Positions 23,494 to 54,759 of a DNA stretch of 54,759 nucleotides are shown here, in pieces (the stretch's first letter is position 1; every line of letters starts with the position of its first letter). The translations under genes and the position numbers were made by a program. Location: positions 89,245 through 144,003 of the forward strand of contig VCMS01000230.1 of NCBI GenBank assembly GCA_022539475.1. The letters are read 5' to 3'. The notes under the pieces are model-generated. The model did no database searches. It was not told the origin of the DNA and worked only from the letters and a program-made list of their open reading frames with translations. The DNA is from Gracilaria domingensis. Lineage: Eukaryota; Rhodophyta; Florideophyceae; Gracilariales; Gracilariaceae.

Positions 23494-23529
23494 TGCACCT
23501 GCAACTCGTGAGCTACGTCCGCATCAAAA

Positions 23530-31020: not shown

Positions 31021-31059
31021 TTACAAAGAACGCTTCACCGGCACCCACACTTGAAAAGA

Positions 31060-37408: not shown

Positions 37409-37775
37409 CCTCAAACGGAATCGAAAGCCCGCAGCTGGCGATGGAAACGTTCGGGAACATTGAAACGCAACCCAATCAACTTCAATAATGAACCGACAAG
37501 CCAACGGCAGCCATGTAATCCGGTATGCTCTGTTTCCCTTTCCGTTTTTCTGCTCGTTACTAAAGAAATTGCTGTTCCCCCTTTTGCCATCCTGGCCTGA
37601 TCCACTATACTCGGTCCTTCTTTCCCACCCAACTCTTGCATTTTCGCTGCGGCTCTTCCCTACATACACAAGCTTCCCCACGCAGTCTACGCTATGCCCT
37701 ACCCTATCGCGGTAGCAACAGGCGAAAGCTCCGCGAGCTTGGAATAGTAAGCGGAAGCGGAACGCGCGTCGAAAT
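37409..37775. other. divergent spacer between MSH6 remnant and the 37.8-kb ORF
   Basis: Could hold both upstream regions. A minus-strand frame stays open here but without MSH6-like features. No clear promoter element was found. Confidence 0.35.
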
Positions 37776-39071
37776 GTGAGGCGACGTGCGACAAAGCGAA
37801 GACGAGCCCTTGAAGCGGTTTTGGATCCCCATACATCAAGCAGAATGGATATCATTTCACGACTTGCCCAACTCATAGATGGAAACGAAGGCACCATCCT
37901 AGACGCAACGAGGCGTATTCAAAACGAGATACTCAACATCGAAGCACCCTTGTGCACGGAACAGCCCCGAGAGTCGTCATCACCCAATGATACTGACACA
38001 CATGTACCTCCGAATGACATCTTTTTGTCTCCAACCCCTCTTCGTAGTACTGTCGAACATTGTGGAGCACAACAGCGACCGTCTACCAGCTCGAATGCTA
38101 CAGATCGTGGTGCTGTAATTGAATCAGATGCAAATCTCTCCAGAGCACCCCGTACACATCATACAAAAGAGCACGATGCCTCGTCCATCGCTTGGGAAGT
38201 GAATCGGGTAATGTTCAGAGGCGACAAGTATTACGGCGCTAAAGGGTTCGGAGGGGGAGAAAGCCGGTTCCACGAGATCCAAATTGACACCCTCAACCTC
38301 TTTTTGCCTCGAGTTGGAACATTCCTGACCCGCATCGCTCCGATCAATCCTCAAGTAAGAAATGTTCGCAGGGACCAAAGTCCCGAGCCCTTCTGGTTCA
38401 CTGCTTCCAAAGATGGTTCCAATGAAGATGGTCAGAAAACGGCTCTCACCCGTTTGAAAGCATACTTACAACGATACCCTGGCTTTGTTGTAACTGTTTC
38501 AAAGCCCGCTGGAGCTCGACCAAGTGACGGTCGTCTCTCCCAGTACGTGACGCGAGGGTTCGGTCCAATCTTTCGACGTGCAGTTGACGGCGAATGCATG
38601 GAGGTTGCCATCATTAACGCAGTTCATGCGCTTTGTGGTTCCGATTTTGCCGCCGAATGTGAGCAGAAAATTGCCAGCCACTCGATTATTTTGCGCTCAT
38701 TGCTGTCTCTCAACCAGCTTGTCCAATCATTGTCCTCCGGCCTACAGCTCCAACGAGGCACGCCGGAAATGAAGAGCTTCGAGAATCTCGCGCAATTGCT
38801 CGAGGGCGTGCATGTCGTCCGCGTCGCAAAAGAAGGGAGGAGATTGACTGAGTCATTCCGTCATGCACTTGTGGTAGACTCTAATCGAGGCCTCATCCTC
38901 GACGGGGCGGAGCATTTTCCTCTTCGCCTGTGCAGGGAGTCTCTTCATCTGTGCGCTGGTGGTCATCCCAAGTTCTCGCGTATCCTAGAGGTCGTCCGCT
39001 TAAACTTCAAACGAGGTTACCGCGAAGCACAAGGCTCAGGTTCTCTTGCTGAACGCATGCACTCCACCTGA
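37776..39071 (+). CDS. hypothetical protein, possible cysteine-peptidase-like domain
   Basis: Intact 431-aa ORF. The Arg-rich start (MRRRATKRRRALEAVL) and Ser/Pro-rich N-terminal third look disordered. From about residue 140 a compact domain begins (AWEVNRVMFRGDKYYGAKGF). It contains DGECMEVAIINAVHALCG, then about 85 residues later FRHALVVDSNRGLILDGAEHFPL and LHLCAGGHP. A Cys followed by a His and an Asp (GEC...RHAL...VVD) resembles the catalytic order of papain-like peptidases, but no named family was matched. It might start at the later Met (about 37845). It stands next to TE remnants and could be TE-borne. Function not established. Confidence 0.5.
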   Translation: MRRRATKRRRALEAVLDPHTSSRMDIISRLAQLIDGNEGTILDATRRIQNEILNIEAPLCTEQPRESSSPNDTDTHVPPNDIFLSPTPLRSTVEHCGAQQRPSTSSNATDRGAVIESDANLSRAPRTHHTKEHDASSIAWEVNRVMFRGDKYYGAKGFGGGESRFHEIQIDTLNLFLPRVGTFLTRIAPINPQVRNVRRDQSPEPFWFTASKDGSNEDGQKTALTRLKAYLQRYPGFVVTVSKPAGARPSDGRLSQYVTRGFGPIFRRAVDGECMEVAIINAVHALCGSDFAAECEQKIASHSIILRSLLSLNQLVQSLSSGLQLQRGTPEMKSFENLAQLLEGVHVVRVAKEGRRLTESFRHALVVDSNRGLILDGAEHFPLRLCRESLHLCAGGHPKFSRILEVVRLNFKRGYREAQGSGSLAERMHST

Positions 39072-39304
39072 AAGAGCTGCATGGCATCTACATTTCGAGA
39101 CTAAAGCTAAACAAAAACGCTACAAAAAGACGTTTAATGTAGCAGGTGGTTGCAGAACAGATTGCAGCATAAACCGTAATGGTGCAATCTTCATGAAACT
39201 TCCGAATCTGTTGTGCATGTATGTGCATTTTTTGTGCGGAGATGCCATTGCGGAATTGAGCTCACTTGCCGCTATCGTAGAACTCTCTTGCAGAACACAG
39301 CGGC

Positions 39305-40340
39305 AACACTGAACAGCAATCTACGACTTTCGTTGAACATTCTACAGTTATAACGCGTCTTGATGGTCTGATAACTCCCAGTTCGCAAGAAGAGGTGGCA
39401 AGCTGGGACTATAACAGTCATCATATTCCAGCGAGCGGGTGCCTGGAAGCGATTTTCTCGTTCCACATCACACCCCTGATGATTACGCAGCGAATACCAC
39501 CATGCAGGAGACCCTAAAAGTCACGGTATGGAGCATGCACCGCCTTTGCCTGTTCCTCAATCTCAGCTCGTCCCAGTGGAAGTGCTTCAAGCGGGTTTGA
39601 CTGCCGGACCCATGGACAAAAAAACCACCTTGCGGTTCTCTAGGCGTTCTGATGGGGATCTAAGGGAAGCCAGCAGTTCTAGCGATGGAGGAAGAAGTCT
39701 TGGTCGCAGTTCTTCTGCAGAATCAGAGTTTTTGCCGATGACATCAATTGGCACGCGAACTTGCGAAGTTCGTGCTGTGTTGCCTGCGATGCACGCCGTA
39801 GATACTATGAATGTGTAGAGAGTTATCGTGCCGAGTACGAGTAAAAATACAAGAGGTTTCCGTCTTGCGTACGTGTCGATGCCTAATGGTTCTATTGCGG
39901 CACATGATCCGACTAGATTTGCTATTATGCAACATAGTAGAGGATGAGTTAGCCCTGTTGGTTTGTCATCGCGACAAATTGTAGGCGCAGAACGCTATGA
40001 TTTTCATGATTCAGGAGAGTGGCATATTTATGGACCCAATGGACATGCGTCGCAGAGACCTGTGAGAAGCAATCGCATTCCAAAGGCGCGTCTGGACTCT
40101 GCGGAGGCAGATATGGACAGAGATGAGTTTGAGGACCGTGATCAAGCTGAGAAAGTAACTAAAAATCAGTCGGATGATAGGTCTGATGAAGGCTTTAATG
40201 AGGGCGACGATCCAGACGATGATGAGCAAGGAAGACAAAGTGGAGGGAACATGTACTATTCGATCGGTAGTGCTTCCTGCCCGAAGAGGAAGCACGCAAT
40301 CAATGCTAATGGTTTTGTTTACCAGAGAACGAATCCATAG
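39305..40340 (+). pseudogene. hypothetical protein gene with in-frame stops
   Basis: One plus-strand frame from 39528 to 40340 is open apart from TAG at about 39816 and TGA at about 39948. Upstream, 39305-39520 is also coding-like in other frames. The downstream part has FHDSGEWHIYGPNGHASQRP and an acidic Asp/Glu-rich region (about 40110-40235). Both stops would be Gln or Arg codons before a C-to-T change. No family recognised. Confidence 0.4.
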
Positions 40341-40408
40341 AATTTAGAGGATGTTCAAGGTCAAAACTCACAGGCCAATAACATATTAGGTTGATAAAGC
40401 CTCTTACA

Positions 40409-40894
40409 TCAGACCAAACTCCTCTTTTGACGAAGGCGCGCAGAAGATTTATCAACCCTTTTCGATATGATTGAGCGGCTAAAAGCGCTGTTCTTGGCCC
40501 TTTCGTAAGCGTTTCGGGTTTTCTTCTCAAGAATTAAGGCCTGCACCGTTTTTGGTAAAGACTGTGGAAACGTTTCGGTAAAGTAGAAAGGAGTCTGGGC
40601 ATTAATCTTTAGCTTGTGCACAATGCAGACGTATTCCTTGTAAATCTCTTCTGTAGTTTCTCTCAAAGCGTCGACGAACTCGTCATCATAACATTCTTCC
40701 AAGCCTTTGCGTTCTTCAATAAAGTTCGTGATTTCTTTGTATCTCCTCTTCGCCATATCCGTCAATATATCGACTTGTAAATCCGAGATCAATTCCACAC
40801 CTGCAAAGCGACGTGTTGATAGTTCGCGTTTGAATCTTGCTAGCTCAAGATTATCAACTTCGTTTCGCACTGCCTTCGTATGAGCGATATCCAT
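40409..40894 (-). CDS. small helical protein, family shared with 16563-16802
   Basis: Intact 161-aa ORF, predicted mostly helical and highly charged (FKRELSTRRFAGVELISDLQ, RRYKEITNFIEERKG, ETTEEIYKEYVCIVHKLK), with a basic C-terminus. A diverged fragment of the same family lies at 16802-16563. No known domain was recognised. The repeated occurrence next to TEs suggests a TE passenger. Confidence 0.5.
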   Translation of the reverse strand: MDIAHTKAVRNEVDNLELARFKRELSTRRFAGVELISDLQVDILTDMAKRRYKEITNFIEERKGLEECYDDEFVDALRETTEEIYKEYVCIVHKLKINAQTPFYFTETFPQSLPKTVQALILEKKTRNAYERAKNSAFSRSIISKRVDKSSARLRQKRSLV

Positions 40895-41569
40895 CGTAAC
40901 AAGAATGTGTGCGATACTTTAGAAAGAAGATTGAACAATGAGGTTGTACTCTACACCAGTTTCGTTAACAGTTGTTTTCGGTTCAAATGCACATAAGCAG
41001 AGCTTCCAAAATGGAGGCAGATCGGGGTGGGTTCGATACGAAATTTTAAATTGTTTGTCTTCATTATAAGATTACACTACTTCTTCTACTGCAATCATCA
41101 TAGTCTACAAATAGTTTAGACAAGGAGCGTATAAACTAATCAAAATGCGAACAAGAAACGCCTTTTGTTCAGTACACGTAGACAAATACAAGGTTAAACT
41201 GACATCGGCAAGAAGGAAGTCTAAAATGTCAATGTGGCGCTGACGCGTTATAGGTGAGATTTTGTATACGATAGCTCTTGATGGAGTTTAATTCTCGATA
41301 TACGCATGTAACACTATAAGAGTAGAACACTTTTGACAGAAAACCGTGACCTTAGGCTTTTTTCCTAATAGACGTTTGTCACTACGTGCCAAGGAGAACA
41401 AATTTTGAAGCTGTGCACAGTGTGCACTGCACACTGTGCAACATCGGTAAAGCTACGTACAACTTACTTGGACCTGTAACCAAATTGCCGTGTAGCTTTC
41501 ACTCTGGATATGTATAGAACGTACACTGTTCACAGCTGTACTACTAATCAAAGATTTTTGGAATAGTGT
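40895..41569. other. no gene recognised
   Basis: AT-rich spacer containing the 27-bp palindrome at 41414-41440. Confidence 0.45.
41414..41440. repeat. perfect 27-bp palindrome
   Basis: 13-bp arms TGCACAGTGTGCA and TGCACACTGTGCA around a single C. It resembles the inner part of the 47-bp palindrome at 33653-33699. Confidence 0.85.
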
Positions 41570-42526
41570 GTGCCACGTTCACAGCTGTGGAAAGACAGAA
41601 CGAAGTTGCAAACAATGCGAGGAAAGTTTCGTTTTATCGCTTTCTTGGCTCCTTACCAGCGTAATCCAGGTTTACCAGGAACTTCCACACAGCTTCCTCG
41701 GTTTGCAATGAGAAGGCGTTCTTTCACTTTACGAGCTCTTCAACATTGTGTTTCAAGTATTTCCAGTTCAAAAACATGGACTGCTGTTAGAGAGATGTTC
41801 TCAAGTACGGACACAAGGTCGATTCTTGATCAAATTGGTGAACAGGCCCTTCCTCCTTTCCTCAGTCTCGTGAAAGAAACACTGGATGAGCACTCTATTA
41901 CATACTTCCCAGAAAAGACAAGGATAACTCTGGTGAATTCGGCCCTCGTGGAAGGCGGTTTCGTTCCAACTCTTGAACACTTCGATTCGTCTTCTAAGGC
42001 ATTTAATCTGGGACGACCCAAATACCCCATCATCCAACGTGTCTTCGCTTCTCCAGCATTTGGTCCCAGTAGAAAGCCTAAGTTCTCCACTGTATTGGTA
42101 AGCGGAGAAGATTCAGAGACTTGGGTTGCCCAGGTAGTCGCTCTGATTCGAATATCTCTCCTTGATTCTGCACTTACCGCACCAGAGGTGGCATTCGTCC
42201 GGTATCTCGAGGTTTTACCCCCCGCAACAAACATCGACCACATATTGAAATGCATATCTTTACGGTGGGCTACAAACGATGAAAAGAACCACACTCTTCC
42301 GTTCCCTCGTCATTCCAAAGCGGAGACTATCGTAGAGTTAACTCCTTGGTACGGGATGGTTCCGGCTTCTGCACTACAGGGAACTGTCCATGTTGTTCGA
42401 TCAAACTACCCTGCTCCACCTTTTTGTCCTCCACTTCAATGGTTTCAACACCGATTCTACATCAATCGATTCTATCATGATTCAGATGAAGGACCAACTG
42501 AGCACGTTGATCTTGTACAGCCTTAA
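41570..42526 (+). CDS. orphan Plavaka-type C-terminal domain
   Basis: A 318-aa ORF. The second half has the layout of the C-terminal region of Plavaka/KDZ-associated transposases: RVFASPAFG, a VWVAQ-like TWVAQVVALIRI, AFVRYLEVL, then WYGMVPASALQGTVHVVRSN (family: hVPhxxIxRxxHLVPxx) and RFYINRFYHD (family: FYVNxxxD). The N-terminal catalytic part is absent in the preceding sequence. Probably a remnant, or a separately encoded part of a Plavaka-type element. The intact ORF on the intact-Plavaka side (24642-27143) lacks this segment. Confidence 0.5.
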   Translation: MPRSQLWKDRTKLQTMRGKFRFIAFLAPYQRNPGLPGTSTQLPRFAMRRRSFTLRALQHCVSSISSSKTWTAVREMFSSTDTRSILDQIGEQALPPFLSLVKETLDEHSITYFPEKTRITLVNSALVEGGFVPTLEHFDSSSKAFNLGRPKYPIIQRVFASPAFGPSRKPKFSTVLVSGEDSETWVAQVVALIRISLLDSALTAPEVAFVRYLEVLPPATNIDHILKCISLRWATNDEKNHTLPFPRHSKAETIVELTPWYGMVPASALQGTVHVVRSNYPAPPFCPPLQWFQHRFYINRFYHDSDEGPTEHVDLVQP

Positions 42527-42602
42527 ACATTAAGGGCTCCATCCTCTACATGTTCACCTTGTGGTGCCTTTTCTTGTCATCCTGTGTTACTTCCGAAATC
42601 GT

Positions 42603-43460
42603 TCATGTCCATTTCCTTGAACTCCATATCCCCTTCCTCGCATTCACCAACGAAACATCGCTAATAGACCCCAATCTTCGGCTCACACTGTCAATAAAAA
42701 ATTGTTCTTTCACAGTGAGGTAAAGTCTTCCGTTCGACGGCATTCGATATCCAAATGTAGCCTCTCTCATGTCATTACCAAGAACCTTAGTCCAATCTTC
42801 CATTGTCGTTCCAAAATTATGAAACTCGCTGGAATTGGTCCTCAAGACACGTTGCCTAACATCCCCCAGAACATTCTTTAAACAGAGAGGTAGCAGTTCG
42901 GCAAACTTCTTTGTAAACAGTTTCTGTCTCTGGCCACCCCTTGACACATCCGTACTTAGAAGGCTCACAACCGTCAACACCCAAGCGTCAAAACGTGCGA
43001 GCAACAGTATTGTGCCATCTAAAAAGGTGCCCGTATCCTTGTCTTCCACATCATACCCAATAAACTCCTTCAGCACTTGTACCCCGACACGGTTTCGGAA
43101 GAACAAGTCTTGATCTTCCGTCGGCATATCCTCGACATTGTCCGCATTGGAGTACTTTAGACGAACAAATGGGGCTTTTCTCCACCATGAACTGTTCGGT
43201 ACACCATTTTCGTCAAGACGCAGTATGTTCTCCTGCGCTTCCTTCAACTGCATTGTGAGTTCGTCAGCATTCTCTTCTACCAGCTTTGTTCTTCTCCAAA
43301 TCAGATCGTACCCCAGGAGCAGAAATAGTTTATCCCTCGTGTTTCTCTTACGAACGCCCACGACGTCACTCATGGTCTGCCGCATTCTCTGCCTAAGGCA
43401 CATATCTGCACAAAGTTCCAGTATACACCTGTCGGTAAGAGATGCTTTTCTAATACCTTC
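42603..43460 (-). CDS. hypothetical protein, downstream part of the coiled-coil gene
   Basis: The frame continues directly, in phase, from the ORF ending at 43461 across one TGA: the 19 codons between TGA and the first Met (EGIRKASLTDRCILELCAD) are open and similar in style. It contains SSWWRKAPFVRLKYS and a helical LLARFDAWVLTVVSLLSTD region. Near the 3' end another frame offers an acidic ending (GDMEFKEMDMNDFG) and a stop at about 42553, which hints at a late frameshift. No domain recognised. Best read as the C-terminal half of one gene with 43461-44918. Confidence 0.45.
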   Translation of the reverse strand, partial: EGIRKASLTDRCILELCADMCLRQRMRQTMSDVVGVRKRNTRDKLFLLLGYDLIWRRTKLVEENADELTMQLKEAQENILRLDENGVPNSSWWRKAPFVRLKYSNADNVEDMPTEDQDLFFRNRVGVQVLKEFIGYDVEDKDTGTFLDGTILLLARFDAWVLTVVSLLSTDVSRGGQRQKLFTKKFAELLPLCLKNVLGDVRQRVLRTNSSEFHNFGTTMEDWTKVLGNDMREATFGYRMPSNGRLYLTVKEQFFIDSVSRRLGSISDVSLVNARKGIWSSRKWT

Positions 43461-44918
43461 TCAGCTCAACTCCTTCAACTCGCTTTCAACCATTTTCTTC
43501 AGCAAAGCATCTGGTCCCCCCTCTACCGACGGTGTGAACATGCCAAAACTGCCCAAGAGCTCCACGGGGTTTTTAGGAACCATGTATGAACCACCTTCCT
43601 CCGGCTCAATAAGCCCTTCCCCACTCTCAGTTGCGTCTTCCACCTTCTCGGCACGGTTACCCCAATTTCGGGTGAGCGACTCACCTTCAAGCCATAGCTC
43701 ACTTGTTTCTCTCCTTGCCCACGTCAGCATGTTGTGATACACTGCTCGAGCAACCCCTCGAAACTCGTCGCACACCTCAATTTTATGCTTCTTTCGACCT
43801 GTCTGCCCAGGTTCACCAGCACGTGTACTCCTATCTCCCTCCTGTTTCAGTGCCCCTCTTAGCCCTTCAATGACTAGATCCTTCCCTTCAAGCCTCTTTT
43901 TCAAAGCCGTACTCTGCTCTTGAGCGACCTTCACTAGAATTCCCCGAACCATCAAGTCCTCTTGTAGCGTCTTAACCTTTTCTTTCAAGCAATTCAGTTC
44001 ATATAAAAGATCACGTCTGTTCATAGAGGTTGATTTCACACCAGTGTGGATATCTTCCGGTATTTCCCTAGCCTCTTCGGCGACAGGCCCCGGTAATGCC
44101 GCAGGATTCGGTGTTATTTCGTTATCGGAACTATCCTCATGTGCCATACCCTTAGACACGAGAGGCTGCAGGCGTTCTGTGTCCACCCTTGGCACGGCTC
44201 CGAGCTCCAACTCCCGTGTCTGTCCTCCTCCATGGCATGCTATATCAGATGAATTGGGCCTCGTACGAGCTGCAACGGCCCCCGTTCTGGAAAGAAAGGA
44301 AGGTCGAGGAGTAACTCGTCTATCAGTTGTCTCTCGATTTCTTATTGTCTTTCTCCCTTGTCCGGACCCATTGCGAGGCATGATACGATTCATAGCGGCC
44401 CCAGTTCTAGAAGACAGGGATGGACGTGACGATCTTAATATACTAGGGCTCTCACGACTTCTCGTCGTTTTCCCTTGTTGTCCAGATCCACTGGGCGGCG
44501 TAACCCGCGCCCCAGTAGCTCCGGTCTTCGATATCGGCCGGGTACATGAAGGTTTTGGTGTCATACGAACCTCTTCGGTTCCAGTTGTCATGCCCTCCTG
44601 TCCTGACCCGCTGGGCCGAGTTACCTCATCTTCTTGAGGAGCAGAGACAGATGCACGATTTGCATTATCGGCAGTTGACGGCACGACATCGTTCGCTGAT
44701 CCACGAATTCTTGACGCAATCCCGGAAGACGCTCTGCTGCGAGATGGGCGAGAGAGTCCTGTAGAAGGACGCCCACTGACTCTCTCCTTCGTCGAGGACG
44801 ACTTCCGTTTAGGAAGTGCGGTGCTTGTAGCCTGATTCGTATCATCCGATGCTCTTCTCTTCATCTGTCCACTCTTGTTCCGCTGCGTACTATTTCGCTT
44901 TCTCGGCGTTATACCCAT
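43461..44918 (-). CDS. hypothetical nuclear coiled-coil protein (cassette gene C)
   Basis: About 485 aa from the preferred start MGITPRKRNSTQ (44918). An upstream Met at 44987 would translate a G/C homopolymer tract and is less likely. The first half is a long Ser/Arg/Pro-rich, basic and probably disordered region with repeats of a GSGQxxxTxRxRE type. A coiled coil follows (LLYELNCLKEKVKTLQEDL through about 70 residues) and then a folded segment with AVYHNMLTWARRETSELWL. It ends at TGA 43461-43463, beyond which the same frame continues (see 42603-43460). Third gene of the leftward arm, about 250 bp after the methyltransferase-SET gene. Possibly a structural or chromatin-binding partner. Function unknown. 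Confidence 0.55.
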   Translation of the reverse strand: MGITPRKRNSTQRNKSGQMKRRASDDTNQATSTALPKRKSSSTKERVSGRPSTGLSRPSRSRASSGIASRIRGSANDVVPSTADNANRASVSAPQEDEVTRPSGSGQEGMTTGTEEVRMTPKPSCTRPISKTGATGARVTPPSGSGQQGKTTRSRESPSILRSSRPSLSSRTGAAMNRIMPRNGSGQGRKTIRNRETTDRRVTPRPSFLSRTGAVAARTRPNSSDIACHGGGQTRELELGAVPRVDTERLQPLVSKGMAHEDSSDNEITPNPAALPGPVAEEAREIPEDIHTGVKSTSMNRRDLLYELNCLKEKVKTLQEDLMVRGILVKVAQEQSTALKKRLEGKDLVIEGLRGALKQEGDRSTRAGEPGQTGRKKHKIEVCDEFRGVARAVYHNMLTWARRETSELWLEGESLTRNWGNRAEKVEDATESGEGLIEPEEGGSYMVPKNPVELLGSFGMFTPSVEGGPDALLKKMVESELKELS

Positions 44919-44954
44919 GTTGTGGAGATAAACAGGGTAATGAAACGAAATTGT

Positions 44955-44986
44955 TGGGGAGGGGGGGAGGGGGTGGGGGGGGTGCA
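44955..44986. other. G-rich tract (G-quadruplex-prone)
   Basis: Five runs of 4-8 G separated by single bases (GGGGAGGGGGGGAGGGGG then TGGGGGGGGTG) lie just upstream of the preferred start of gene C. On the plus strand this could fold into a quadruplex near the promoter. Confidence 0.6.
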
Positions 44987-45165
44987 TGGTTCAGATATTC
45001 CGGGAGACTCCGCAGTTCCTGCTTTTTAGGAATTTGAGGTGCCCAATGGGTCGCAAATATCGCCGTTACAGATGAAGAGCTCTAGTGTACATGTACAACA
45101 ACGCGTATTGCAGGCAGCTGCAACACTCACAAGCATATTTACTTTCTATTCGGTACTGAACTCAT

Positions 45166-47547
45166 CTATTGCTCCAATGTCACAGCCCAGTCCCAGGCGT
45201 ACTGCTCTCCGTAGTTGAAATAAAACTTTTCGCCCCTCTCAATATCTCTTACTGCTCTACAACGAAGTAGAGCATAGTTAGAAAGGTCTGACTTAAACTG
45301 TATCACGGACTTCGCTTCCACCACCTGCACATTGGCACTTCAAGTCCTGTTTGACCGGGGCTCCGATAAATCGGGATCCCCGGCATGATATCCGGCGTCG
45401 TTAATGTAGCCCCCGATACAAAAAGGCGCCGGGACAATGTAAACTTCGCTCTCCTTTCTATCCTGAGCCTGTCCTGGTCTGTTCCTCAGGTGCAGAAACT
45501 CCGTACCAGTCACAGTGACCATCATAGAAAACAACTTGTACCGCACTGGAGTTGCTCCGAGACAGCCACTTCCATACGTTAAGTGTCCTTCCTTCCGGTT
45601 CGTCAGATCCGTGTATACCAAAGTTCCATAGAAATGACAGATAGTTTCCCCAGCCAATATCTTATGTTCCGTGAACACCCCCATACCAGCACGGGGATGT
45701 CGGATCTTAGAAGATGCTATATGTAAGCGATAGCGATTGGCTTCAACAGTCAACAGCATATGCATATCCATAAGATTCAGAGCTCCTCGGTACTTCCCCT
45801 CCCAAAGATCTACAGTACGCTGTCCACACTTCTCGACAAAGTCCCAGTCCTTCCAGTATCTTCCTAGGAACTGAGTAATATGTCCAGGCATCACTTGGTA
45901 CTGGGGGTAACCAAATGGAGCCTCCCATTCAAGCCGACCTCGGTCCCGATGTGGAACCCGTTCATAAGTCGTTGAAGCCGCATCCACCACCTCCTGTTCA
46001 ACCAGGATGTCATTCTTCCCCCCGCGAATAACTTCGGCCATAAGAGTCGTTAGATGGTGCTTCGCATGGCTGAAACATGGCCTATTCTTCTCGCACCCCA
46101 AGAACTTCCTATGCTTTGTCAGCGATAGGCACGCCATACCCGTAGAAAAAGTTCCCGCGAACATGTCCATGACAAGATCACCCGGTCTTGTGAAGCGACA
46201 TGTCAACTCCTTCATCAACTCCCTCGACTTCTGCTCCGGTCTTATGTACTGCCCACCTGGTACTGAACTACCTGGCTCATGTACCTTCCATGTCAACCAC
46301 TCCCCCGCTCTTGGTTTTGGCACCCGGTCAATTACATTCCTGTTAGCCGGGAAAGTAGAAGGAATGAAATTGTTCTCCTCAAATGGAGTAAGACTGGCTT
46401 CCTCCGATGGTCGCAATCCACGCTTCACCCCATGAACGGCGTACTCCGTTACGGGCTGTATCCCAAACTTCCGTGGATTCCCTCCAACATTACTGCGATC
46501 CCGGATGAACACCAGTGGATTCGCATCCACTTTAAACGAAGGCATGAGTTCTGGTTTACCTTCGCTTCCAGCTTCATCTTTCGTACTCGCCGTTTCCGAA
46601 AGTATCCTGTGCCAAACATGAAACTGTGCCATGGCACAGATTATAATGAAGTGCCCACCTGACCGAAGCGCGGAACTTATTAAGTCTGCCGTACTGATCA
46701 TGTCATCCTCACCGAAGACATCGTGAGTACTATTCCGTTTGCTCCTCTTCCTTCGCGTGTTAAAGGGAGGGTCTGTTAGGACAAGCTGTGCCTCACCCCA
46801 TAAAATCTCACTCTGATTCACAAACGTTTCGTGTGTGTGCCTCAGGTCCGTCATGTCACAGTTGTACGCTACAAAGTGTGACTTTCTCATCCCCTTCCAC
46901 ACCTTGTCCATATTCATTCGAAGGAGACTGGATATCCCCTTCATGGGCGGCTCAATACCAGTCTTTTGGATGTTGTAACCGGCAACCCGAGATTCATGCT
47001 CGGCAAGATTCACCGGCTTCTCGAACTCGTCGCTATCGGAGCTCACGAGGTTCATATACTCTCGACGAGGTGGGGGTGGGGCAGACTTGGTCGAAGAGGG
47101 TTCGGCATTACCGGAAGTTTTAGGGGTTTTCGTCAGTTCAATATCAGGTTTCGCGTGAATGCCGACATGGAACCCTGCCGCATGACGCATACCCTGTATC
47201 GGTTTCCATAGCAACTCCGAAAACTTCTGAAATCGAGCAGGCAACTCACCGGAGTCAGAACCAGATACGGTATCCATCCGTATCTCCGAAAACTCTATCC
47301 AGTTCCTCATCTGATCAGCCCGTAAGCTATAGAGGCTATCGTGGGTGCATACGGTTTCGAGGTCTGTCAAAAATTCCTTAGCCAGTATTCGGAGGTTTGT
47401 ATCGCATTCATCACTCAAGGTCTCCACCGATCCACTAGTACTGCTCTGTGGCACATCCTTTGTGTTGAATCGAGTACTCTGGATCGGCGGGGCATAACCA
47501 GACTCCCGTGTCTCTAGCGCCGTATACTTCAACGTCTGCATATTCAT
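45166..47547 (-). CDS. beta-class DNA amino-methyltransferase fused to a SET domain
   Basis: Predicted to methylate DNA bases (N6-adenine or N4-cytosine) and, through SET, protein lysine. The catalytic motif TDPPF (about residue 259) comes before the AdoMet motif DLVMDMFAGTFSTGMAC (about 455-470) and RPEQKSRELMKEL, matching the order of beta-class enzymes such as CcrM, where HPTQKP...DPFAGSGTT follows DPPY. From about 610 a SET domain begins (HPRAGMGVFTEHKILAGE), with YINDAGY in the usual NHS position. A TGA at 45340 interrupts it, but the same frame continues 57 codons with NYALLRCRAVRDIERGEKFYF and NYGEQYAW, the canonical SET C-terminus, to TAG at 45166. Upstream, a single TAG at 47551 separates it from the in-phase ORF 48261-47554. 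Confidence 0.8.
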
Positions 47548-47553
47548 GTAAAT

Positions 47554-48261
47554 CTATGGTTTCACCATATGCTGAACGTTCGTGTATCCGAGATGAGCCG
47601 CAAAACAACTCCATGCCCATACGACCTCATTGATAGCGAATTCCAGTCGATCACAGTTGTCTTTGTAGAACGACGTAAAAGTGGGTATGTACACAGATGG
47701 TGCATGGTTCACTTTTCGTTTCTTTTTCGGTTGTTTCTTCTTCATCATTCCGATGTTGTCGTTCTCTCCCATTGTGTGGCCGAGGTATGATAAGTATATA
47801 ACCACCTCAAATGGGTTCACAGCTGTTGGTGGGATGAACACTGTCGTCTTCAGAACCTGCTTTCTCCTGGTCATGAAATAACCAACCAGGCATCGCACCG
47901 GTAGGTATATACCCATATCCATAGAGAGAAGGAAAAAATCGCGCAGTCTCTGGTCCTCATCCCCGTCCTTCTTGTCAAGAAGCTTCGTTACAAGATATCG
48001 TTGTTCTACAGGTTTGTTATTCACAACACTCTTTCGCAGCTGTTGCAGTGTCAAGTTCTGCAGGTTCTTGGAGTTAGTGGCCTCCTCAAACATCTTCCTT
48101 GCCTCCGGAATATCCTTATAGTTCTCGGCGCAGAACTCTATTAACCCTCTAAACCCCACGTCCCGTGGCCGATCAGGGCCTCCATCGCTGTTTGCCAAAG
48201 CATCGCGAAAAACCAAGAAAAGTCTGACATATGCATGGAACGCCGGAGGCGGAGCACTCAT
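47554..48261 (-). CDS. NLS-bearing N-terminal protein/domain of the methyltransferase-SET unit
   Basis: 235 aa, first ORF of the leftward arm, starting about 60 bp downstream of the mirrored promoter segment. It has a helical N-terminal domain of unknown type, a perfect SV40-like nuclear localisation signal PKKKRKV (about residue 178), and a segment with TSFYKDNCDRLEFAINEVVWAWSCF. It ends at TAG (47554-47556), and the same frame continues 2 codons later at Met 47547 of the methyltransferase. The two ORFs are therefore either a two-gene unit 6 nt apart or one ~1030-codon gene carrying a nonsense change (CAG to TAG). I favour one gene. A nuclear role agrees with the DNA methyltransferase and SET domains. 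Confidence 0.6.
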   Translation of the reverse strand: MSAPPPAFHAYVRLFLVFRDALANSDGGPDRPRDVGFRGLIEFCAENYKDIPEARKMFEEATNSKNLQNLTLQQLRKSVVNNKPVEQRYLVTKLLDKKDGDEDQRLRDFFLLSMDMGIYLPVRCLVGYFMTRRKQVLKTTVFIPPTAVNPFEVVIYLSYLGHTMGENDNIGMMKKKQPKKKRKVNHAPSVYIPTFTSFYKDNCDRLEFAINEVVWAWSCFAAHLGYTNVQHMVKP

Positions 48262-48323
48262 GTCGATAGGATGTATCTCCTCTCCAACATCGGTGGAATC
48301 TATCGCTTCAGCGCAAACAACGG

Positions 48324-48421
48324 AGGCGAGCCTTTAAATGGCGACTTACGCTGGGCACCCCCGCTTTCGGCAGCTCCTCCCAGCGCACTGCCAGTCTCGT
48401 CCGTGTCCGTGTCCGCTCGGA
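48324..48421 (-). promoter_or_regulatory. mirrored promoter segment, left
   Basis: About 100 bp, almost identical in inverse orientation to 49803-49903. It ends about 60 bp before the leftward start codon and includes a TTTAAA-type AT patch (CCTTTAAATGG) in a GC-rich setting. Confidence 0.6.
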
Positions 48422-48630
48422 GCGATAGCGTCGCGTGTCGGCCACGTCGCGATTCGGAGCTATTGCAACGGTCCCGTATTGTGCTAAAAGTCGCGGATCA
48501 AGTGGGTGAGAAGCGCTAGTTTTCTCTAGTTTGATATATGTGCACGGCGTGTGCAGCGAAATCACTGCCGGAAGTGCCGGGAGGAGTGTTTTGGGAGGTC
48601 TCCGGAGGGTGTCAAAAAATCGTCCAAAAC

Positions 48631-48705
48631 GTGCCCGCGGGCGGGGGAGGTCGGTCGTGTTAGGGTAGCTACCGTAACACGACCGGACCCCCCCGCCCGC
48701 GGGCA
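48631..48705. repeat. hub palindrome unit 1
   Basis: GTGCCCGCGGGCGGGGG...GTGTTAGGGTAGCTACC(G)TAACAC...CCCGCCCGCGGGC, one mismatch near the centre. Confidence 0.85.
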
Positions 48706-48740
48706 TAAACTCGCACATTTTTCAAAACTTCGTCGAAAAC

Positions 48741-48812
48741 GTGCCCGCGGGCGCGGGGGTCGGTCTTGTTAGGGTAGCTACCCTAACACGACCGGGCCCC
48801 CCCGCCCGCGGG
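48741..48812. repeat. hub palindrome unit 2
   Basis: Same architecture with the perfect core GTTAGGGTAGCTACCCTAAC. Confidence 0.85.
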
Positions 48813-48849
48813 CATAAAATCGCACATTTTTCAAAAAATCGTCCAAAAC

Positions 48850-48925
48850 GTGCCCGCGTGCCGGGGGGTCCAGTCGTGTTAGGGTAGCTACCCTAACACG
48901 ACCGACCCCCCCCCGCCCGCGGGCA
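48850..48925. repeat. hub palindrome unit 3
   Basis: Same core. The left arm has small changes (GCGTGCC for GCGGGCG). Confidence 0.85.
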
Positions 48926-48982
48926 CGTTTTGGACGATTTTTTGACATCCTCCGGAGACCTCCCAAAACACTCCTCCCGGCA

Positions 48983-49152
48983 CTTCCTGTACCCACTGCG
49001 TCACCTCAGTGCACCATCCCGGAAATTAGGGAGTGTCTGGAGGGTGGAGAAGACGGGATGGTCACTTCCGTGCACCATCCCGGAAATTAGGGAGTGTCTG
49101 GAGGGTGAAGATGACGGGATGGTGCACTGAGGTGACGCAGTGGGTACAGGAA
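48983..49152. repeat. hub centre: inner inverted arms with tandem core
   Basis: Perfect 39-bp inverted arms (CTTCCTGTACCCACTGCGTC... and its complement) enclose two tandem copies of a ~64-bp segment containing GGAAATTAGGGAGTGTCTGG. Confidence 0.85.
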
Positions 49153-49207
49153 GTGCCGGGAGAAGTGTTTTGGGAGGTCTCCGGAGGGTGCCAGAATGTG
49201 GCCAGAA

Positions 49208-49303
49208 CGTGCCCGCGGGCGGGGGGGGGGGGGGTCGGTCGTGTTAGGGTAGCTACCCTAGGGTAGCTACCCTAACACGACCGACCCCCCCCGCGCCCGC
49301 GGG
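49208..49303. repeat. hub palindrome unit 4 (double centre)
   Basis: The core is duplicated (TAGGGTAGCTACCCTAGGGTAGCTACCCTA) and a long G run lies in the left arm. Confidence 0.85.
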
Positions 49304-49340
49304 CACGTTTTGGGCGATTTTTTGAAAAATGTGCGATTTT

Positions 49341-49423
49341 ATGCCCGCGGGCGGGGGGGTCCGGTCGTGTTAGGGTAGCTACCCTAACACGACCGACCCC
49401 CCCCCCCCCCCCGCCCGCGGGCA
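49341..49423. repeat. hub palindrome unit 5
   Basis: Same core, with a long C run in the right arm. Confidence 0.85.
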
Positions 49424-49460
49424 CGTTTTGGACGATTTTTTGAAAAATGTGCGATTTTAT

Positions 49461-49533
49461 GCCCGCGGGCGGGGGGGGTCCGGTCGTGTTAGGGTAGCTA
49501 CCCTAACACGACCGACCCCCCCCGCCCGCAGGC
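49461..49533. repeat. hub palindrome unit 6
   Basis: Same core. The right arm ends GCCCGCAGGCAC. Confidence 0.85.
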
Positions 49534-49802
49534 ACGTTCTGACCACATTCCGGTGCCTTCCCGGGACCTCGCAAAACACGCCGCCCCGCAGTGATTTCGC
49601 TACACCCGGCCGCCGGTACGTTGGCGCCGCTGTCCACGTGTATTGGCGGGAGTAGGCTGTACATGGAAGTGAATGAGTGTACTCTTGACTACTATGCAAA
49701 GCATTTGAAGAGCATGATTAGAGAACGCGACCATTGCTCGCGTGAGTCATCATTGCGCGAACTCCACGACTCTAAAGCGTACAATCAGCGTGCGAGCGGC
49801 CA

Positions 49803-49903
49803 CGGACAGGACACGGACGAGACTGGCAGTGCGCTGGGAGGAGCTGCCGAAAGCGGGGGTGCCCAGCGTAAGTCGCCTTTTAAAGGCTCGCCTCCGTTGT
49901 TGT
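49803..49903 (+). promoter_or_regulatory. mirrored promoter segment, right
   Basis: Partner of 48324-48421. It ends about 58 bp before the rightward start codon (49961), with CCTTTTAAAGG in the corresponding position. Confidence 0.6.
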
Positions 49904-49960
49904 ATCGTCCCGAGCGAGCGTATTGTTGATATACACCTTTCACTGCAATAGCTGTTCAAC

Positions 49961-52375
49961 ATGAAGCCAACTCGTGTTCGAAAGCGTACGCAAAGCGTGA
50001 CTCCTCGCACTCGGCGGAGCACTCGATTATTGCAAGGTGGAATGCGGGTTTCTCTGCAGATGGATATTGAGGATGAAGGAAAGGTGATAGTCGGGGAAGC
50101 GTTGTTGCATGGAATTGGAAGTGTTCTACGCCGCGAGTTGCACGGGAAGCAATTGGACCCAGGTCTTGTGGTGGTTCATAATATTCTCATCAGTCGAAGC
50201 GGTCAGACGTTCTACCCTTACCGGGCGGAGGGCCTGGATCTTCCACAATATATCCAGGATCTCCGGACGGCCGCTCCTTGGGATGAGAAAATGATGGAAC
50301 CGGTGGCAGCCAGCATTCCGGCGTCGAAGCGAGGAACGGTGAGCGCTATGAGTGAGGTGATGACGCCGACAAGCCGCACGGAGCCAATTCGAAGTTCATC
50401 AACACCGAGAGGTAGCGCATCAGTAGCACCTCCGCGGGCAGGTCCGTCGTCTATTACGAAGCGGTCTATGGAGACGAGAGCATCCCCAGCTACGAAGCGG
50501 ACAGGTCAAACAAAGTCTACCTCCGCTACGAAGCCCACTGCGTCAAAAAGGGCTTCTCCTGCGATGAATCAGACCGTCGACACAAGGGGATCTTCTGCGT
50601 CGAAACAGACGGTTCAGCAGGGGACGGCTGTGCAAGAGAAGGAAGATGAGATCATGAAAGGTCACCTTCCAGACGCGGATGCGCAATCCGCGCAAGGAGC
50701 TGGTCCATCTGTACCCCAAACTGCACCAGAAACTGCGGAGCAGCAGGACGATGACGTTGTGCTTCTGTCCGCAAGAATGGCACGTTCAAGTGTTTCTGGC
50801 GAGCGGTCTGGAACACAAGGGACACCTACTCGGAGCAAGACGTACAGACGAATTCGTCAGAAGGTACCAAAGGTGAACCTCAATCAGTACCGGATGGTTG
50901 TTGTTACTGTTGACATCACTCTGGTGGACACTCCGCCGAATTTACTCCGTGGAGTAAGTAAACGCCACGTTGAAGCCCTTGTGAAGAGTATGAAGGAGCG
51001 GGGGATATTGCAGTCGATGGGTTCTCCAGTGGTGGCCTTACAAGATGCTACTACGGGAGAGAGGGATACTGACAAGGGACGCCTAACGAAGAAGTGCTTC
51101 ATTGTAGATGGTTTGCATCGTCTGAAAGCTATACAATATTTGGCAGCGACTGGTGCACCGAAGTGGAAGCGATTAGCCAAGTTTTGGCGTTGCAATCTGC
51201 TGATACGAAGAGATGGGAGGCCCATTGGGATGAAGGAATTGTTATGTGTTGCTTCGTACCTCAATGAGTCGACGAGTACCATGCGAAGGATGATGTTTGC
51301 AGACAAGATACACTCTATAGTTAGTGTGGTCGCCATTCTAATTGAAGATGTTGAGGGGGTGACGCCGGCAGACGTGGATCCTGCAGAAGTGACAGAAGTG
51401 TTGAAGGAGAGCCAACTGATTGGGACTGTGCAAGAGCGTCAGTACCTGAGATATGCCAATGTCGCCCTGCAACTCATGTCTCGTGAGGGAATGCTGGCCC
51501 ATTTCGAGGATATATGTGAGACTGTGAGTGACATAGGTCTCACACATCTGTCCCATACTCCGCTATATGTTTTGGATGCCGAGGAGTTTTCCTTCATTCT
51601 TGATTGTCTTCAGATGTTTCTATTGAAGGGCAAGTCGACGAAGACAAAGAAATGGAAAAGCTTTGAGAAGGTTCGAGGTTTCTTTTATGATAGAGCAGTG
51701 TCTCTGTTCCGCGCGGCTAGAGCAGTGAGGAATGAACTGAACGAGGAAGAGTCCATGGAAGTGTTCCTGAAACGCGAAGTCAGTCTTTCTGCTCCATCGA
51801 ATGAAGATGACGTTGAAGACCCGGACAACAACGCAGCTGTGTATCAGTTCCTTTTGGGACAAGTTGTGAACTTCAACACATTGCCGCGTGTTCGGAGCAG
51901 GACGAACTCAATTAGAACTGCCACGACTTCCGTTCAGAATCGATTGCGGACGATGCTCAAGGTAATTCCGCCCCCCGCACCAGTGAAGCAGTCCGTGACG
52001 AAGAGGAGGACTCCCGCTGCTGCTGCTGCAACATCTGCCAGTGAAGAAGGGGAGCCGCGAAGAAGTGCACGAGAACGGGCGCAGGTGAGTTATAGGGAAA
52101 TTGAGCACGGCCGAAATCGAGGTGCCATAGAAGTTCTGGATAGCTCTGAAGAAGAACAGCGGGCTCCGCCGAGGAAGAAACGGAGAAAGACTTTCACACA
52201 ACAGATGAGATCTATTCTGAACAGCATGACACCGGATGACTTGATGTCTCAACTAAATGAACATGTGCTAAGAGGAAGGTCGATGAAGGTTCAGTTCGTG
52301 GCATTGGAGAGGGAGCGAATGCAGAGAACACAGGCAGTTCTGCATTTGTGGATGACGATGAGCTTCTTTCTGTGA
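49961..52375 (+). CDS. ParB-like domain protein (N-terminal part of a ParB-dioxygenase fusion)
   Basis: 804-aa ORF. Basic N-terminus (RVRKRTQSVTPRTRRSTRLL), a Ser/Thr/Lys-rich linker of short SATKRT-like repeats (about 130-220), then a ParB/Srx-like domain at about 310-450: VDITLVDTPPNLLRGVSKRHVEALVKSM with RGILQSMGSPVVAL and the signature FIVDGLHRLKAIQYL (family: hhDGxHRxxA). A helical region follows, then basic NLS-like RKKRRK near 735. ParB-fold domains bind DNA and CTP or act as nucleases. The ORF stops at 52373-52375, but an adjacent frame open from about 52261 continues with an acidic linker (DDDELLSVTVPRVVTVEKD), so the protein probably ran on into the dioxygenase; the break is a frameshift or a short intron. 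The start codon lies about 58 bp from the mirrored promoter segment. Confidence 0.7.
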   Translation: MKPTRVRKRTQSVTPRTRRSTRLLQGGMRVSLQMDIEDEGKVIVGEALLHGIGSVLRRELHGKQLDPGLVVVHNILISRSGQTFYPYRAEGLDLPQYIQDLRTAAPWDEKMMEPVAASIPASKRGTVSAMSEVMTPTSRTEPIRSSSTPRGSASVAPPRAGPSSITKRSMETRASPATKRTGQTKSTSATKPTASKRASPAMNQTVDTRGSSASKQTVQQGTAVQEKEDEIMKGHLPDADAQSAQGAGPSVPQTAPETAEQQDDDVVLLSARMARSSVSGERSGTQGTPTRSKTYRRIRQKVPKVNLNQYRMVVVTVDITLVDTPPNLLRGVSKRHVEALVKSMKERGILQSMGSPVVALQDATTGERDTDKGRLTKKCFIVDGLHRLKAIQYLAATGAPKWKRLAKFWRCNLLIRRDGRPIGMKELLCVASYLNESTSTMRRMMFADKIHSIVSVVAILIEDVEGVTPADVDPAEVTEVLKESQLIGTVQERQYLRYANVALQLMSREGMLAHFEDICETVSDIGLTHLSHTPLYVLDAEEFSFILDCLQMFLLKGKSTKTKKWKSFEKVRGFFYDRAVSLFRAARAVRNELNEEESMEVFLKREVSLSAPSNEDDVEDPDNNAAVYQFLLGQVVNFNTLPRVRSRTNSIRTATTSVQNRLRTMLKVIPPPAPVKQSVTKRRTPAAAAATSASEEGEPRRSARERAQVSYREIEHGRNRGAIEVLDSSEEEQRAPPRKKRRKTFTQQMRSILNSMTPDDLMSQLNEHVLRGRSMKVQFVALERERMQRTQAVLHLWMTMSFFL

Positions 52376-53873
52376 CAGTTCCACGGGTTGTCACGGTCGA
52401 GAAAGATGCTGCGCCAGACGATCAGCAAGAGACAGGTGGGGGGTCATTTGATGACGAGTTACCTACAGCTCTTCCGGAATCTGAGGAGCACGGACTTGTT
52501 CGAGGTGACCCATATGATGGCCCACAGAACCCATCATGGTGCGGGTATGCCAGGCTGAGACCACAGGAATGGCAAGGGAAGAACGTAATTGAGCACAAGG
52601 ACCCCTGGCTCAGAGTCATTCACTTGCCGAAGGACATAGGTCGGAGCTGCTAAGTGTCTCGAATCTCAGAGATGTACACCATCTTTTCTTTTGGCACGCT
52701 GCAAGGGCTGAACATCGCCTACGGGCGGAGACATTTGGTATGCAGTATCCTCGTACTCGACCGACAGGTATGGATGATGAAGAGGTGCTGTGGGTTGCTG
52801 CGAAGGAGCATGACGAATTTGGGCAAATGTTCTTCGCCCGAATGCAAGCTGAGCTAAGGCAGAATGGATATTGCGTTCTTGATGGCTTTGCGACGGATAA
52901 TGGTGTCCCTGAATGGGAGGAGTTGGAAGAAGTTCGGGAGTTCGGAGATGTGTCGGGGAAGTTGGTGGACTTCTTCGAGAATGAGTATGGAGCGATGCCG
53001 GATATACGGAAAGGGGAGGAACAGAAGTCGTTTTTCAAATCATCAACGATGATGAAGGACGGAAGGACGGGAGCGATGGACCATTTGAGGGGAGAGTGAT
53101 GTCGACACGTTGGGGTACGGTGGAGAAGCCGGAGGATAATGAGGAGCTCAGGTGGGTTGTAAGGTCGCGTGCTTTACTTGATGTTCGAATGGGTACAATT
53201 GCTGCGGCTTTGGAACTATGGGACAATGAAAGGGAAGCTGTGAAGATGTACACTCCGAAAACTGGTGGTCGATTTCTGGGGACGACGAGAAAGTGCAAGC
53301 GCCAGACGCTGCACACCGACTTCAGTGGTCTGGTTACGAAGGAAACAATGAATACTGGCAACCCCGGATACTTTGTAATGGCCTCTGGGAAAGAGGGCTT
53401 TCCTCTCTGGGTGAGCGCTGGAAGCCATCAACTGGTGGGGATGAACAACCAACAGTTGCGAGTGATGTCGGAGGTGTATCCAGCGAAGAAGATAATCACC
53501 CACCGTACTCTGTATTCGTCGGCCGTGGTGATGTGACACATGCTGGAGCAAGTGGGAAGGACAAGGTGGATAGGCCCGAGTCTATGGATTTGCTGGTTAG
53601 ATACCACATGTACATGGTACCAGAGGGCTACGCACTACCTGATGCTGTTCATCCGGTGCGGATTTCCGACCCACGTTTGTCAATGGTGACGAGGAGGAGG
53701 AGGCGGAAGATGAACTGTTGTCCGATAAGGAGAGTGGGGCGGTTGACATGGACGAAGACCAAGTGGTCGTGGAGATTGGTGTGGAAGCGGACGCCGGTAG
53801 AACCGAAGTGCTCGAGAGTAGTAGTGATGACGATTTGCCAATAATGAGGCTGCGAGCGCCTCGAAGTGGATGA
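52376..53873 (+). pseudogene. 2-oxoglutarate/Fe(II) dioxygenase, frameshifted continuation
   Basis: Consecutive frames read as one protein: linker to about 52640, then ELLSVSNLRDVHHLFFW and FFARMQAELRQNGYCVLDGF (52600-53030), QIINDEDGRKDG...MSTRWGTVEKPED (53033-53490), PPYSVFVGRGDVTHAGAS and LVRYHMYMVPEG (53500-53690), and an acidic tail ending SSSDDDLPIMRLRAPRSG at 53871-53873. The double-stranded beta-helix iron ligands are LHTD (His 53312, Asp 53318) and GDVTHAG (His 53539), with Arg 53599 placed to bind 2-oxoglutarate. Such enzymes hydroxylate protein or nucleic acid, and PhyH-like or nucleic-acid-modifying types have this layout. Breaks at about 53031 (T run), 53500 (C run) and 53682 (T run) look like single-base losses. 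Confidence 0.7.
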
Positions 53874-54187
53874 GAATGAGATGATTAGTAAATTATGTGT
53901 GTCTTGCGAGTATTAAGAGTAGTATACTATTACAAGGCTATACATATGAACATAGAAAAGGTGCGGCAGGCTGGTATTTGAACAAATGTCAAACTTCTTT
54001 GGTCCAGTTGCGTCTAATTGCAACATGCCAAATGCTCGGTATCGTTAACATCATTGGTGGCACCAGTCAATTCGCAATTGGACATGTAGCGTCCTAACAT
54101 TTCTGAAACTGCACTTAAGGTTGCTTTTAAGAGAAGTATGAAACTGAGAAGTTATACAGTTCCTGTCTATGCGGTACTTGTGGCAGT
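53874..54187. other. spacer, no gene recognised
   Basis: AT-rich. Possible right flank of the divergent cassette, but no inverted-repeat partner to the 42.5-kb side was seen. Confidence 0.4.
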
Positions 54188-54577
54188 ATGGTGACTGTAT
54201 CAGGAAAAATGGCAGAGGAACAGAGAGACTTGGCGGAAATTTCACCAAATACCTTGTCTAAGTTCATATATGCCAATGGTTACGGTATATTAAGTTCCGT
54301 TGATGGAACGTTGAGAAGAGAAGGAGAGTCAATTCCAGAAGAAGTTGTGAAGTGTATGAAGTTCATTGACGAACGTGTTGGTTTCGGACTTGTCACAGGG
54401 GGTGATGTGGGCGACGTGGAGGGGAAAATGGAAGGACTCGGAGACTATAAGTTTGGTGTCTCGGCGAATCATGGAGCTTTCCTGCGTTTCTCTGACGAGA
54501 GGGAAATTAAGGTGCATTCAATGATCACACCCTTGACCACACTGTTGACGGACTACTGTTCCTGGCAAGGGATTTGA
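54188..54577 (+). pseudogene. HAD-phosphatase-like fragment (phosphomannomutase-like)
   Basis: A 129-aa ORF. ILSSVDGTLRREGESIPEEV followed by VGFGLVTGGDVGDVEGKM, SANHGAFLRF and LLTDYCSW parallels eukaryotic phosphomannomutase (LFDVDGTL...IGVVGGSD...ENGLVAY...LINYC). The nucleophile Asp of DVDGT is replaced (SSVDGT), so catalysis is unlikely. A trehalose-phosphatase origin is a weaker alternative. Downstream frames to the window end are broken. Confidence 0.35.
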
Positions 54578-54759
54578 ATAGGAGGCATGGTATTGTGAAT
54601 GATGATGACAGGGGTTCGTGGAGACCAGAAGTTGTGTGGCCTTCCCAATTTCGTGTACAACAAACCTGTGGCAGGTGGAAAGAAGAAGTGATTCTGCTAG
54701 GGACCTGTTGCAGAAGATGATGGCGTTTGTTATCTATCCGGCCGCATAAAAGTTGCGAA

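Follow-up and report, generated by a model that had tools for sequence, protein, structure and literature searches.

The 54,759-nucleotide stretch analysed here (the window: positions 89,245-144,003 of Gracilaria domingensis contig VCMS01000230.1, or C230, assembly GCA_022539475.1) ends with its contig and carries a cassette of divergent genes around a palindromic hub. This cassette probably forms the central part of a cut-and-paste DNA transposon of ~21.5 kb that belongs to the Plavaka group (CACTA/EnSpm-related) and encodes its own DNA- and chromatin-marking, anti-silencing module. Transposition by the Plavaka-group transposase is well supported. A preliminary description had seen at 42540-53880 what looked like the coding module of an undescribed mobile or extrachromosomal eukaryotic element and had recognised no known element type. 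The mobile element is borne out by its ends, its 2-bp target-site duplications (TSDs), its own transposase and the hundreds of ends found in the genome. Its limits and its type had to be revised, since the element spans 22909 to beyond the contig end at 54759 and encodes a Plavaka-type transposase outside the interval first drawn.

Ends and target sites of the transposon

The window copy begins at 22909 with the left terminal inverted repeat CGTCTGTCTCTTGCAGATGCTA (22909..22930, plus strand; left-end match at C230:112153) and runs off the contig end. A 21.5-kb copy, C178:81197-102711, has both borders (left CGTCTGTCTCTTGCAG.., right ..TGCAGAACACAGACG, flanks AT/AT). These are readable because the copy interrupts a retrotransposon between its long terminal repeats (LTRs), 766-base direct repeats at 73049-73814 and 105688-106453 that are 98% alike. 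There it breaks a long frame that is pol-like by eye. To the eye, the landing site (C178:73049-106453; L047/L048/L051/L052), an LTR retrotransposon, resembles Ty3/gypsy elements and has gag-, protease- and pol-like frames. Window positions 22909-27048 and 41649-54759 are collinear with C178:81197-97257 at 97.8-98.7% identity, except for a longer hub in the window and a local duplication near the left end of the element. In blastn, the left part of the window copy (22909..27047, plus strand) is 98.1-98.6% identical to C178:81197-84962, and the extra duplication lies at 23530-24054. The terminal repeats, CGTCTGT..ACAGACG, are imperfect and ~15 bp long, and 12 of the 15 outer bases agree. This agreement was judged by eye, as were the ParB-like and HxD..H..R motifs, the coiled coil and the repeats of the hAT-like insertion described below.

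Element ends and target duplications, which the preliminary description had left to be sought, were both found. In the genome searched (77,892,253 bases, 680 contigs), the end patterns with at most one mismatch matched 541 left and 556 right ends, and the backwards patterns used as control matched none. Of 99 left ends listed among the 541, 52 have a same-strand right end no more than 40 kb away, some right ends being used twice, and 19 have one on the opposite strand. The paired-end sizes cluster near 10.3, 12-14 and 20-23 kb. An exact 2-bp TSD flanks 16 of 21 end pairs, compared with 28 of 420 control pairs in which ends of different copies were mismatched to each other; a 3-bp repeat flanks none of the 21. 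The TSD was present in 5 of 10 pairs of a first set of mixed sizes, in all 10 of a second set (8.9-10.7 kb) and in C178. The 20 pairs other than C178 were found through their CGTCTGT..ACAGACG ends, and their contribution is limited to showing the TSD directly next to these ends. Only two of the five pairs above 20 kb show a TSD, and the large pairs are therefore less securely matched.

One derivative, C26:355014-365321 (10.3 kb), has lost most of the transposase-to-methyltransferase and ParB-to-HAD stretches and has kept the ends and the hub. The common ~10-kb copies may share its deletion history and thus are not counted as independent events. Nothing in favour of an extrachromosomal form turned up, and no search aimed at one was made.

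Transposase and gene order

The transposase open reading frame (ORF) of the window (24642..27143, plus strand) matches PF18759 at 4.3e-18 (66.1 bits) and its C178 counterpart at 2.5e-18 (66.8 bits), against a cut-off of 26.3 bits. It is cut at 27048 by a later insertion, and the 3' part of the transposase-containing frame resumes beyond it (41649..42526, plus strand). CHRC at residue 457, HLLDH at 735 and a following YEHAH (by eye) give the C(2)C and H(3-4)H pattern that in this group precedes the last catalytic E, and the exact 2-bp TSDs agree with its 2-3 bp duplications. The second D of the putative DDE triad is left unassigned. The Plavaka transposase has 123 scored matches in the genome and none in 14 control genomes. 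The KDZ group (Zisupton etc.), which needs an 8-bp TSD, was rejected, because no flank repeat longer than 4 bp was found in 10 pairs scanned for 4-12 bp. PolB, capsid and tyrosine recombinase genes, the marks of Polinton/adintovirus and Crypton elements, were absent from the ORFs scanned with Pfam; the scan covered the longer ORFs, and short unscanned ones remain.

In C178 the transposase reads rightward in two overlapping frames. It is followed by two leftward genes, a coiled-coil-like gene and a gene that joins a nuclear localisation signal (NLS), a methyltransferase (MTase) and a SET domain. Beyond the hub lie two rightward genes, one combining a ParB-like region with a 2-oxoglutarate/Fe(II) (2OG) oxygenase-like domain, the other HAD-like. 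Three more genes complete the order: a second HAD-IIB gene (Hydrolase_3 3e-13) and another gene, both leftward, and, close to the right end, a rightward one (a 309-amino-acid (aa) frame in copy L156). In the window, the contig end cuts off the first HAD-IIB-like hydrolase gene (54188..54759, plus strand), which matches Cof at 3.6e-4 and, in C178, Hydrolase_3 at 5.3e-5. A leftward gene near the right end (L048:7091-7970) contains GRGRIGTML and IVGASRGFIPMD and has the look of a Rossmann-fold reductase by eye, with no Pfam match above cut-off.

The arrangement recurs in the genome. Transposase and MTase matches no more than 14 kb apart point towards each other in 30 pairs and are otherwise arranged in 6, with partial domain matches mostly left out. 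Of the convergent pairs, 18 belong to the first family, and 14 of these are spaced 5,324-5,360 bases. A diverged second MTase family, with its own MTase-SET frame of 1,118 aa, contributes 11 pairs (7 spaced 5,519-5,535 bases), and one further pair is mixed.

The palindromic hub

The hub (48316..49901) consists of outward-facing 93-bp arms at 48316-48408 and 49809-49901, which are 99% complementary, and an array of CGTGTTAGGGTAGCTACCCTAACACG cores between them. The window hub has six core units by ungapped count and seven partly overlapping matches by another search, and 986 nt of it fold at a z-score of -47.8 against 20 shuffles. Two gene units diverge from a nested palindrome, as had been described. 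The hub cores (48632-49528) contain head-to-head TTAGGG/CCCTAA, a common telomere repeat; this may be chance.

The core occurs at 1,372 sites of the genome with at most two mismatches, and its backwards control at none; together with the folding score, this puts the hub well outside what chance would give. Within 1.5 kb upstream of ParB, at least one core is present in 27 of 30 copies, with 0-6 per copy (ungapped, up to five substitutions). In 29 of the 30, the right arm occupies the stretch from ~150 to 60 bases ahead of the ParB start codon (ATG), and in 19 its inverted partner falls within the searched 1.5 kb. At least 30 of 56 scored ParB matches have a divergent NLS-gene match 0.4-2.3 kb upstream. 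The linkage of genes and hub is therefore repeated elsewhere, and the refuting condition named in the preliminary description, a chance arrangement of genes never linked elsewhere or a hub absent from other copies, is not borne out. By eye, each of the 19 core clusters listed on contigs C2-C16 (exact matches) falls within or close to an element end or an NLS-gene match. Of 14 paired elements on these contigs, 12 contain an exact core; this count leaves out a 35-kb pairing whose right end also served another pair.

Cargo genes

The window copy is decayed. Its NLS-MTase-SET gene (45166..48261, minus strand) carries two in-frame stops (one TGA and one TAG, C230:134431-136971), and the span of the gene was set by the length of an uninterrupted 1,031-aa frame in L073, a better-preserved copy. 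This frame runs from the NLS region (PKKKRKV) through the MTase to the end of SET. The NLS, beta-order MTase and SET of the preliminary description were all found; its division into an NLS protein and an adjacent MTase-SET gene is ruled out by the single frame, as is an intron in SET. No intron is needed for either cargo gene, since the L074 frame described below is also uninterrupted. The MTase domain matches PF01555 at 6e-13 in beta order, and the SET domain behind it matches PF00856 at 1.4e-7 in L073 (32.3 bits, cut-off 22.4). Among 24 relatives, motif IV DPP[YF] is present in all and motif I FxGT in 23, downstream in all 23, which places the enzyme in the beta class; 15 of the 24 were flagged for both PF01555 and PF00856. 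Relatives of the cargo proteins outside this genome, those of ParB-2OG included, are 22-47% identical. The nearest solved structures are 5hek and 6pbd, and the CcrM model matches at 2.2e-6. Viral contigs gave at least 160 relatives, of which the best 80 matched the MTase domain at 22-48% identity. A metagenomic relative, P0024, carries a ParB-like N-terminus on an MTase with no SET flagged and may be an independent link between the two predicted activities.

The gene behind MTase-SET (42603..44987, minus strand) has a heptad-like stretch and no Pfam match. A coiled-coil gene had been described here; a stop splits it in the window copy, and the C178 frame reads through that point.

The ParB-like-2OG gene (49961..53878, plus strand) is broken by frameshifts in the window, and its end was set from the length of L074. 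There a single 1,305-aa frame extends from the ParB-like region to the oxygenase, so the ParB-like region running into a 2OG dioxygenase holds at motif level. The window protein has a VDGLHR motif and an HxD..H..R motif. Ten relatives were found, two from the same alga and most of them unnamed. Seven of the eight outside relatives align over both parts; P0031 aligns over the oxygenase only, yet VDGRHR is present. VDGxHR is kept in all eight, HxDF and the distal H each in seven and RYHxY in six; P0027 ends before the distal H, and P0032 is without HxDF and RYHxY. One pattern scan of viral contigs with P0028, which reaches close relatives only, gave no ParB-2OG relative. TET/JBP membership of the oxygenase was rejected, as none of the eight oxygenase domains had any Pfam match, Tet_JBP included, up to E 10 (at the level of sequence comparison). 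P0025 and P0026 bear the NCBI names mediator subunit 15-like and LPXTG protein SasA, and look like misannotated transposon ParB-2OG genes.

Selection on part of the cargo

Selection was examined in the first 783 codons of ParB-2OG, in 28 distinct copies of 30 fetched. Singleton variants (140 synonymous, 359 nonsynonymous, 9 stop) were 28% synonymous versus 27% expected (p 0.88). Variants common to several copies (41 synonymous, 51 nonsynonymous, 3 stop) were 43% synonymous, an excess with p 0.001 against neutrality and 0.003 against the singletons. Pooled pairwise dN/dS was 0.61. The depletion of amino acid changes among shared variants indicates that the ParB-like stretch matters to the copies that spread. 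No C-to-T context resembling repeat-induced point mutation was seen among the singletons, those in CA/CC/CG/CT numbering 42/53/44/44 for 336/272/292/318 sites.

Later insertion and neighbouring features

The insertion in the transposase ORF (27048..41648, 14.6 kb) is hAT-like and foreign to the original element. It has a DUF659 match, 8-bp direct repeats CTCCTTAC at 27040-27047 and 41649-41656, and inverted ends CCAAG..AAAACGAAACTTTCC; C178 is uninterrupted at this site. It holds pieces of host-type genes (MSH6-like MutS, CSE1/exportin-2 and dynamin), which suggests that a hAT element has captured genes on a large scale. A second, partial left end lies inverted at 18731-21588, head to head with the main copy and 1.3 kb apart. 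A fragment of a DDE_Tnp_4 (Harbinger-type) transposase lies at 5311-5937.

Proposed mechanism and alternatives

N6-methyladenine is the usual product of beta-class N-methyltransferases with DPP[YF]; SET domains methylate lysines, and oxygenases with HxD..H..R oxidise methyl groups or bases. Catalysis, substrates and hub binding of the cargo proteins are predicted from such established families; the activities of the enzymes, like the ParB and 2OG folds, are predictions from motifs. At this level the set of two writers and an oxidase-like protein is present as described, and the suggestion that the element marks its own DNA and chromatin is still a prediction. In the mechanism that we propose, the NLS-MTase-SET protein would place methyl groups on adenine (or cytosine N4) of the element's DNA and on lysines of histones close by. 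Its partner, the ParB-like-2OG protein, would be directed to, or work at, the array of palindromes that separates the two genes, and would oxidise a methyl mark or a base. Together they may keep the divergent promoters and the ends of the element accessible, as an anti-silencing or self-marking module. The hub may be a cis-acting double promoter that also carries binding sites, and this would account for its survival in a derivative short of most coding sequence. A stronger version is conceivable, though rather unlikely: the locus would be a self-run, sequence-addressed epigenetic system, in which the ParB-like-2OG protein reads the private palindrome array of the element as a eukaryotic analogue of ParB-parS of independent origin and, jointly with MTase-SET, puts a combined DNA-adenine and histone mark on it, and array-bearing non-autonomous copies are marked in trans.

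Several observations weigh against a self-marking module. The ParB assignment depends on VDGxHR and weak matches (PHROG ParB-like 0.0085; GmrSD_N 0.22), with no match to Pfam ParB, and neither Pfam nor PDB gave a match for the oxygenase domain. Nine of the 24 MTase relatives are without a flagged SET, and motif I of L073 is FVGT, not FAGT; an open frame is therefore no guarantee of activity. Three of 30 copies have no ungapped core upstream of ParB (one of them, L010, has a core with one inserted base), and 2 of the 14 paired elements have no exact core. The hub arms are not homogenised within copies (0.950 versus 0.948), and gene conversion between them is accordingly unsupported. The TSD is absent in 5 of the 21 end pairs, three of them 22.6-22.8 kb long. 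The selection test leaves out the oxygenase, and its copies, the 30 best-matching of 56, could favour conserved ones.

The modification genes might instead serve transposition itself, with hub methylation and ParB-like binding controlling transposase access or the timing of element replication. Dam sites play such a regulatory role for some bacterial transposons. The deletion derivative, which keeps the hub and ends and not the full genes, and the variation of core number from 0 to 6 per copy upstream of ParB would both agree with this. However, it offers no obvious place for SET and the oxygenase, and the transposase is not among the two genes that start at the hub; we regard it as rather unlikely, though worth keeping in view.

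We find it more doubtful that the MTase, the oxygenase, a ParB/sulfiredoxin-fold enzyme and a HAD phosphatase build a complex modified base on the element DNA. Such hypermodification occurs in phages, all four gene types are found in one element at motif or family level, and P0024 joins a ParB-like N-terminus to an MTase. The hhalign match of P0024 has a probability of only 25 (E 0.00079), though, the folds are motif-level predictions, and no glycosyltransferase or kinase appeared among the Pfam-scanned ORFs.

Captured host or bacterial genes might also be carried without benefit, as the host-type gene pieces in the hAT-like element of the same window illustrate. Purifying selection on shared variants, the same arrangement in two diverged families and the motifs kept in relatives (DPP[YF] 24/24, VDGxHR 8/8, HxDF 7/8) make such passive cargo improbable. 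An endogenous virus or virus-like element is scarcely credible: the locus is large and gene-rich with long uninterrupted frames, and the MTase domain has distant relatives in viral contigs, but the 2-bp TSD, the DDE-type transposase family, the absence of a capsid or polymerase gene among the scanned ORFs and the lack of a close ParB-2OG relative in the viral scan speak against it.

Comparison with known systems and significance

Plavaka transposons with TET/JBP oxygenases are known from mushrooms, among them the TET+ PlavakaB elements of Agaricales, in the available text of Kojima (2025; PMC12730594). According to that text, the algal element shares with Plavaka a transposase of that type bearing the C(2)C and H(3)H motifs, a 2-bp TSD and an oxygenase-like cargo gene. 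It differs in its host, a red alga instead of a fungus, and adds MTase-SET, ParB-like and HAD genes; the word ParB does not occur in the main text of the paper. Unlike the oxygenase of TET+ PlavakaB, the algal one matches no Pfam model, TET/JBP included. The termini CGTCTGT..ACAGACG fit neither PlavakaA (TGT..ACA) nor PlavakaB (CATCA..TGATG) as given there, although TGT..ACA is found four bases in; the element is therefore assigned a Plavaka-group transposase and placed in neither A nor B.

Giant Plavaka repeats of Amoebidium are large gene clusters of up to 50 kb, usually with a Plavaka transposase (PMC11244446). Their described cargo is tyrosine recombinases, whose genes have matches in lineages including red algae; the text available from that paper mentions neither MTase-SET nor ParB-oxygenase. 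SET-carrying transposons are also known, HarbingerS and the MuDR elements of Phytophthora (cited in PMC12730594). They share the transposon-encoded SET with the algal element but belong to other superfamilies, and the citing text mentions no fused bacterial-type DNA methyltransferase. No description of a transposon with MTase-SET or ParB-oxygenase was found in the literature searched, parts of which were available as excerpts, and an earlier mention is possible. The bacterial and phage beta-class N-methyltransferases CcrM and DpnA have the same DPP[YF] before FxGT. In contrast to them, the algal MTase is a domain within a eukaryotic fusion protein of ~1,030 aa that also has an NLS and SET.

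These results extend Plavaka-group transposons to a red alga and describe one eukaryotic polypeptide that joins SET to a beta-class MTase of bacterial type. Transposons are usually viewed as targets of epigenetic silencing. The algal element appears to unite predicted functions in DNA methylation, histone methylation, oxidation and palindrome binding with a defined array in cis. Its ends number more than 500 in a single genome and selection can be detected on some of its cargo, which makes the question of whether a transposon writes its own chromatin state directly testable in one seaweed.

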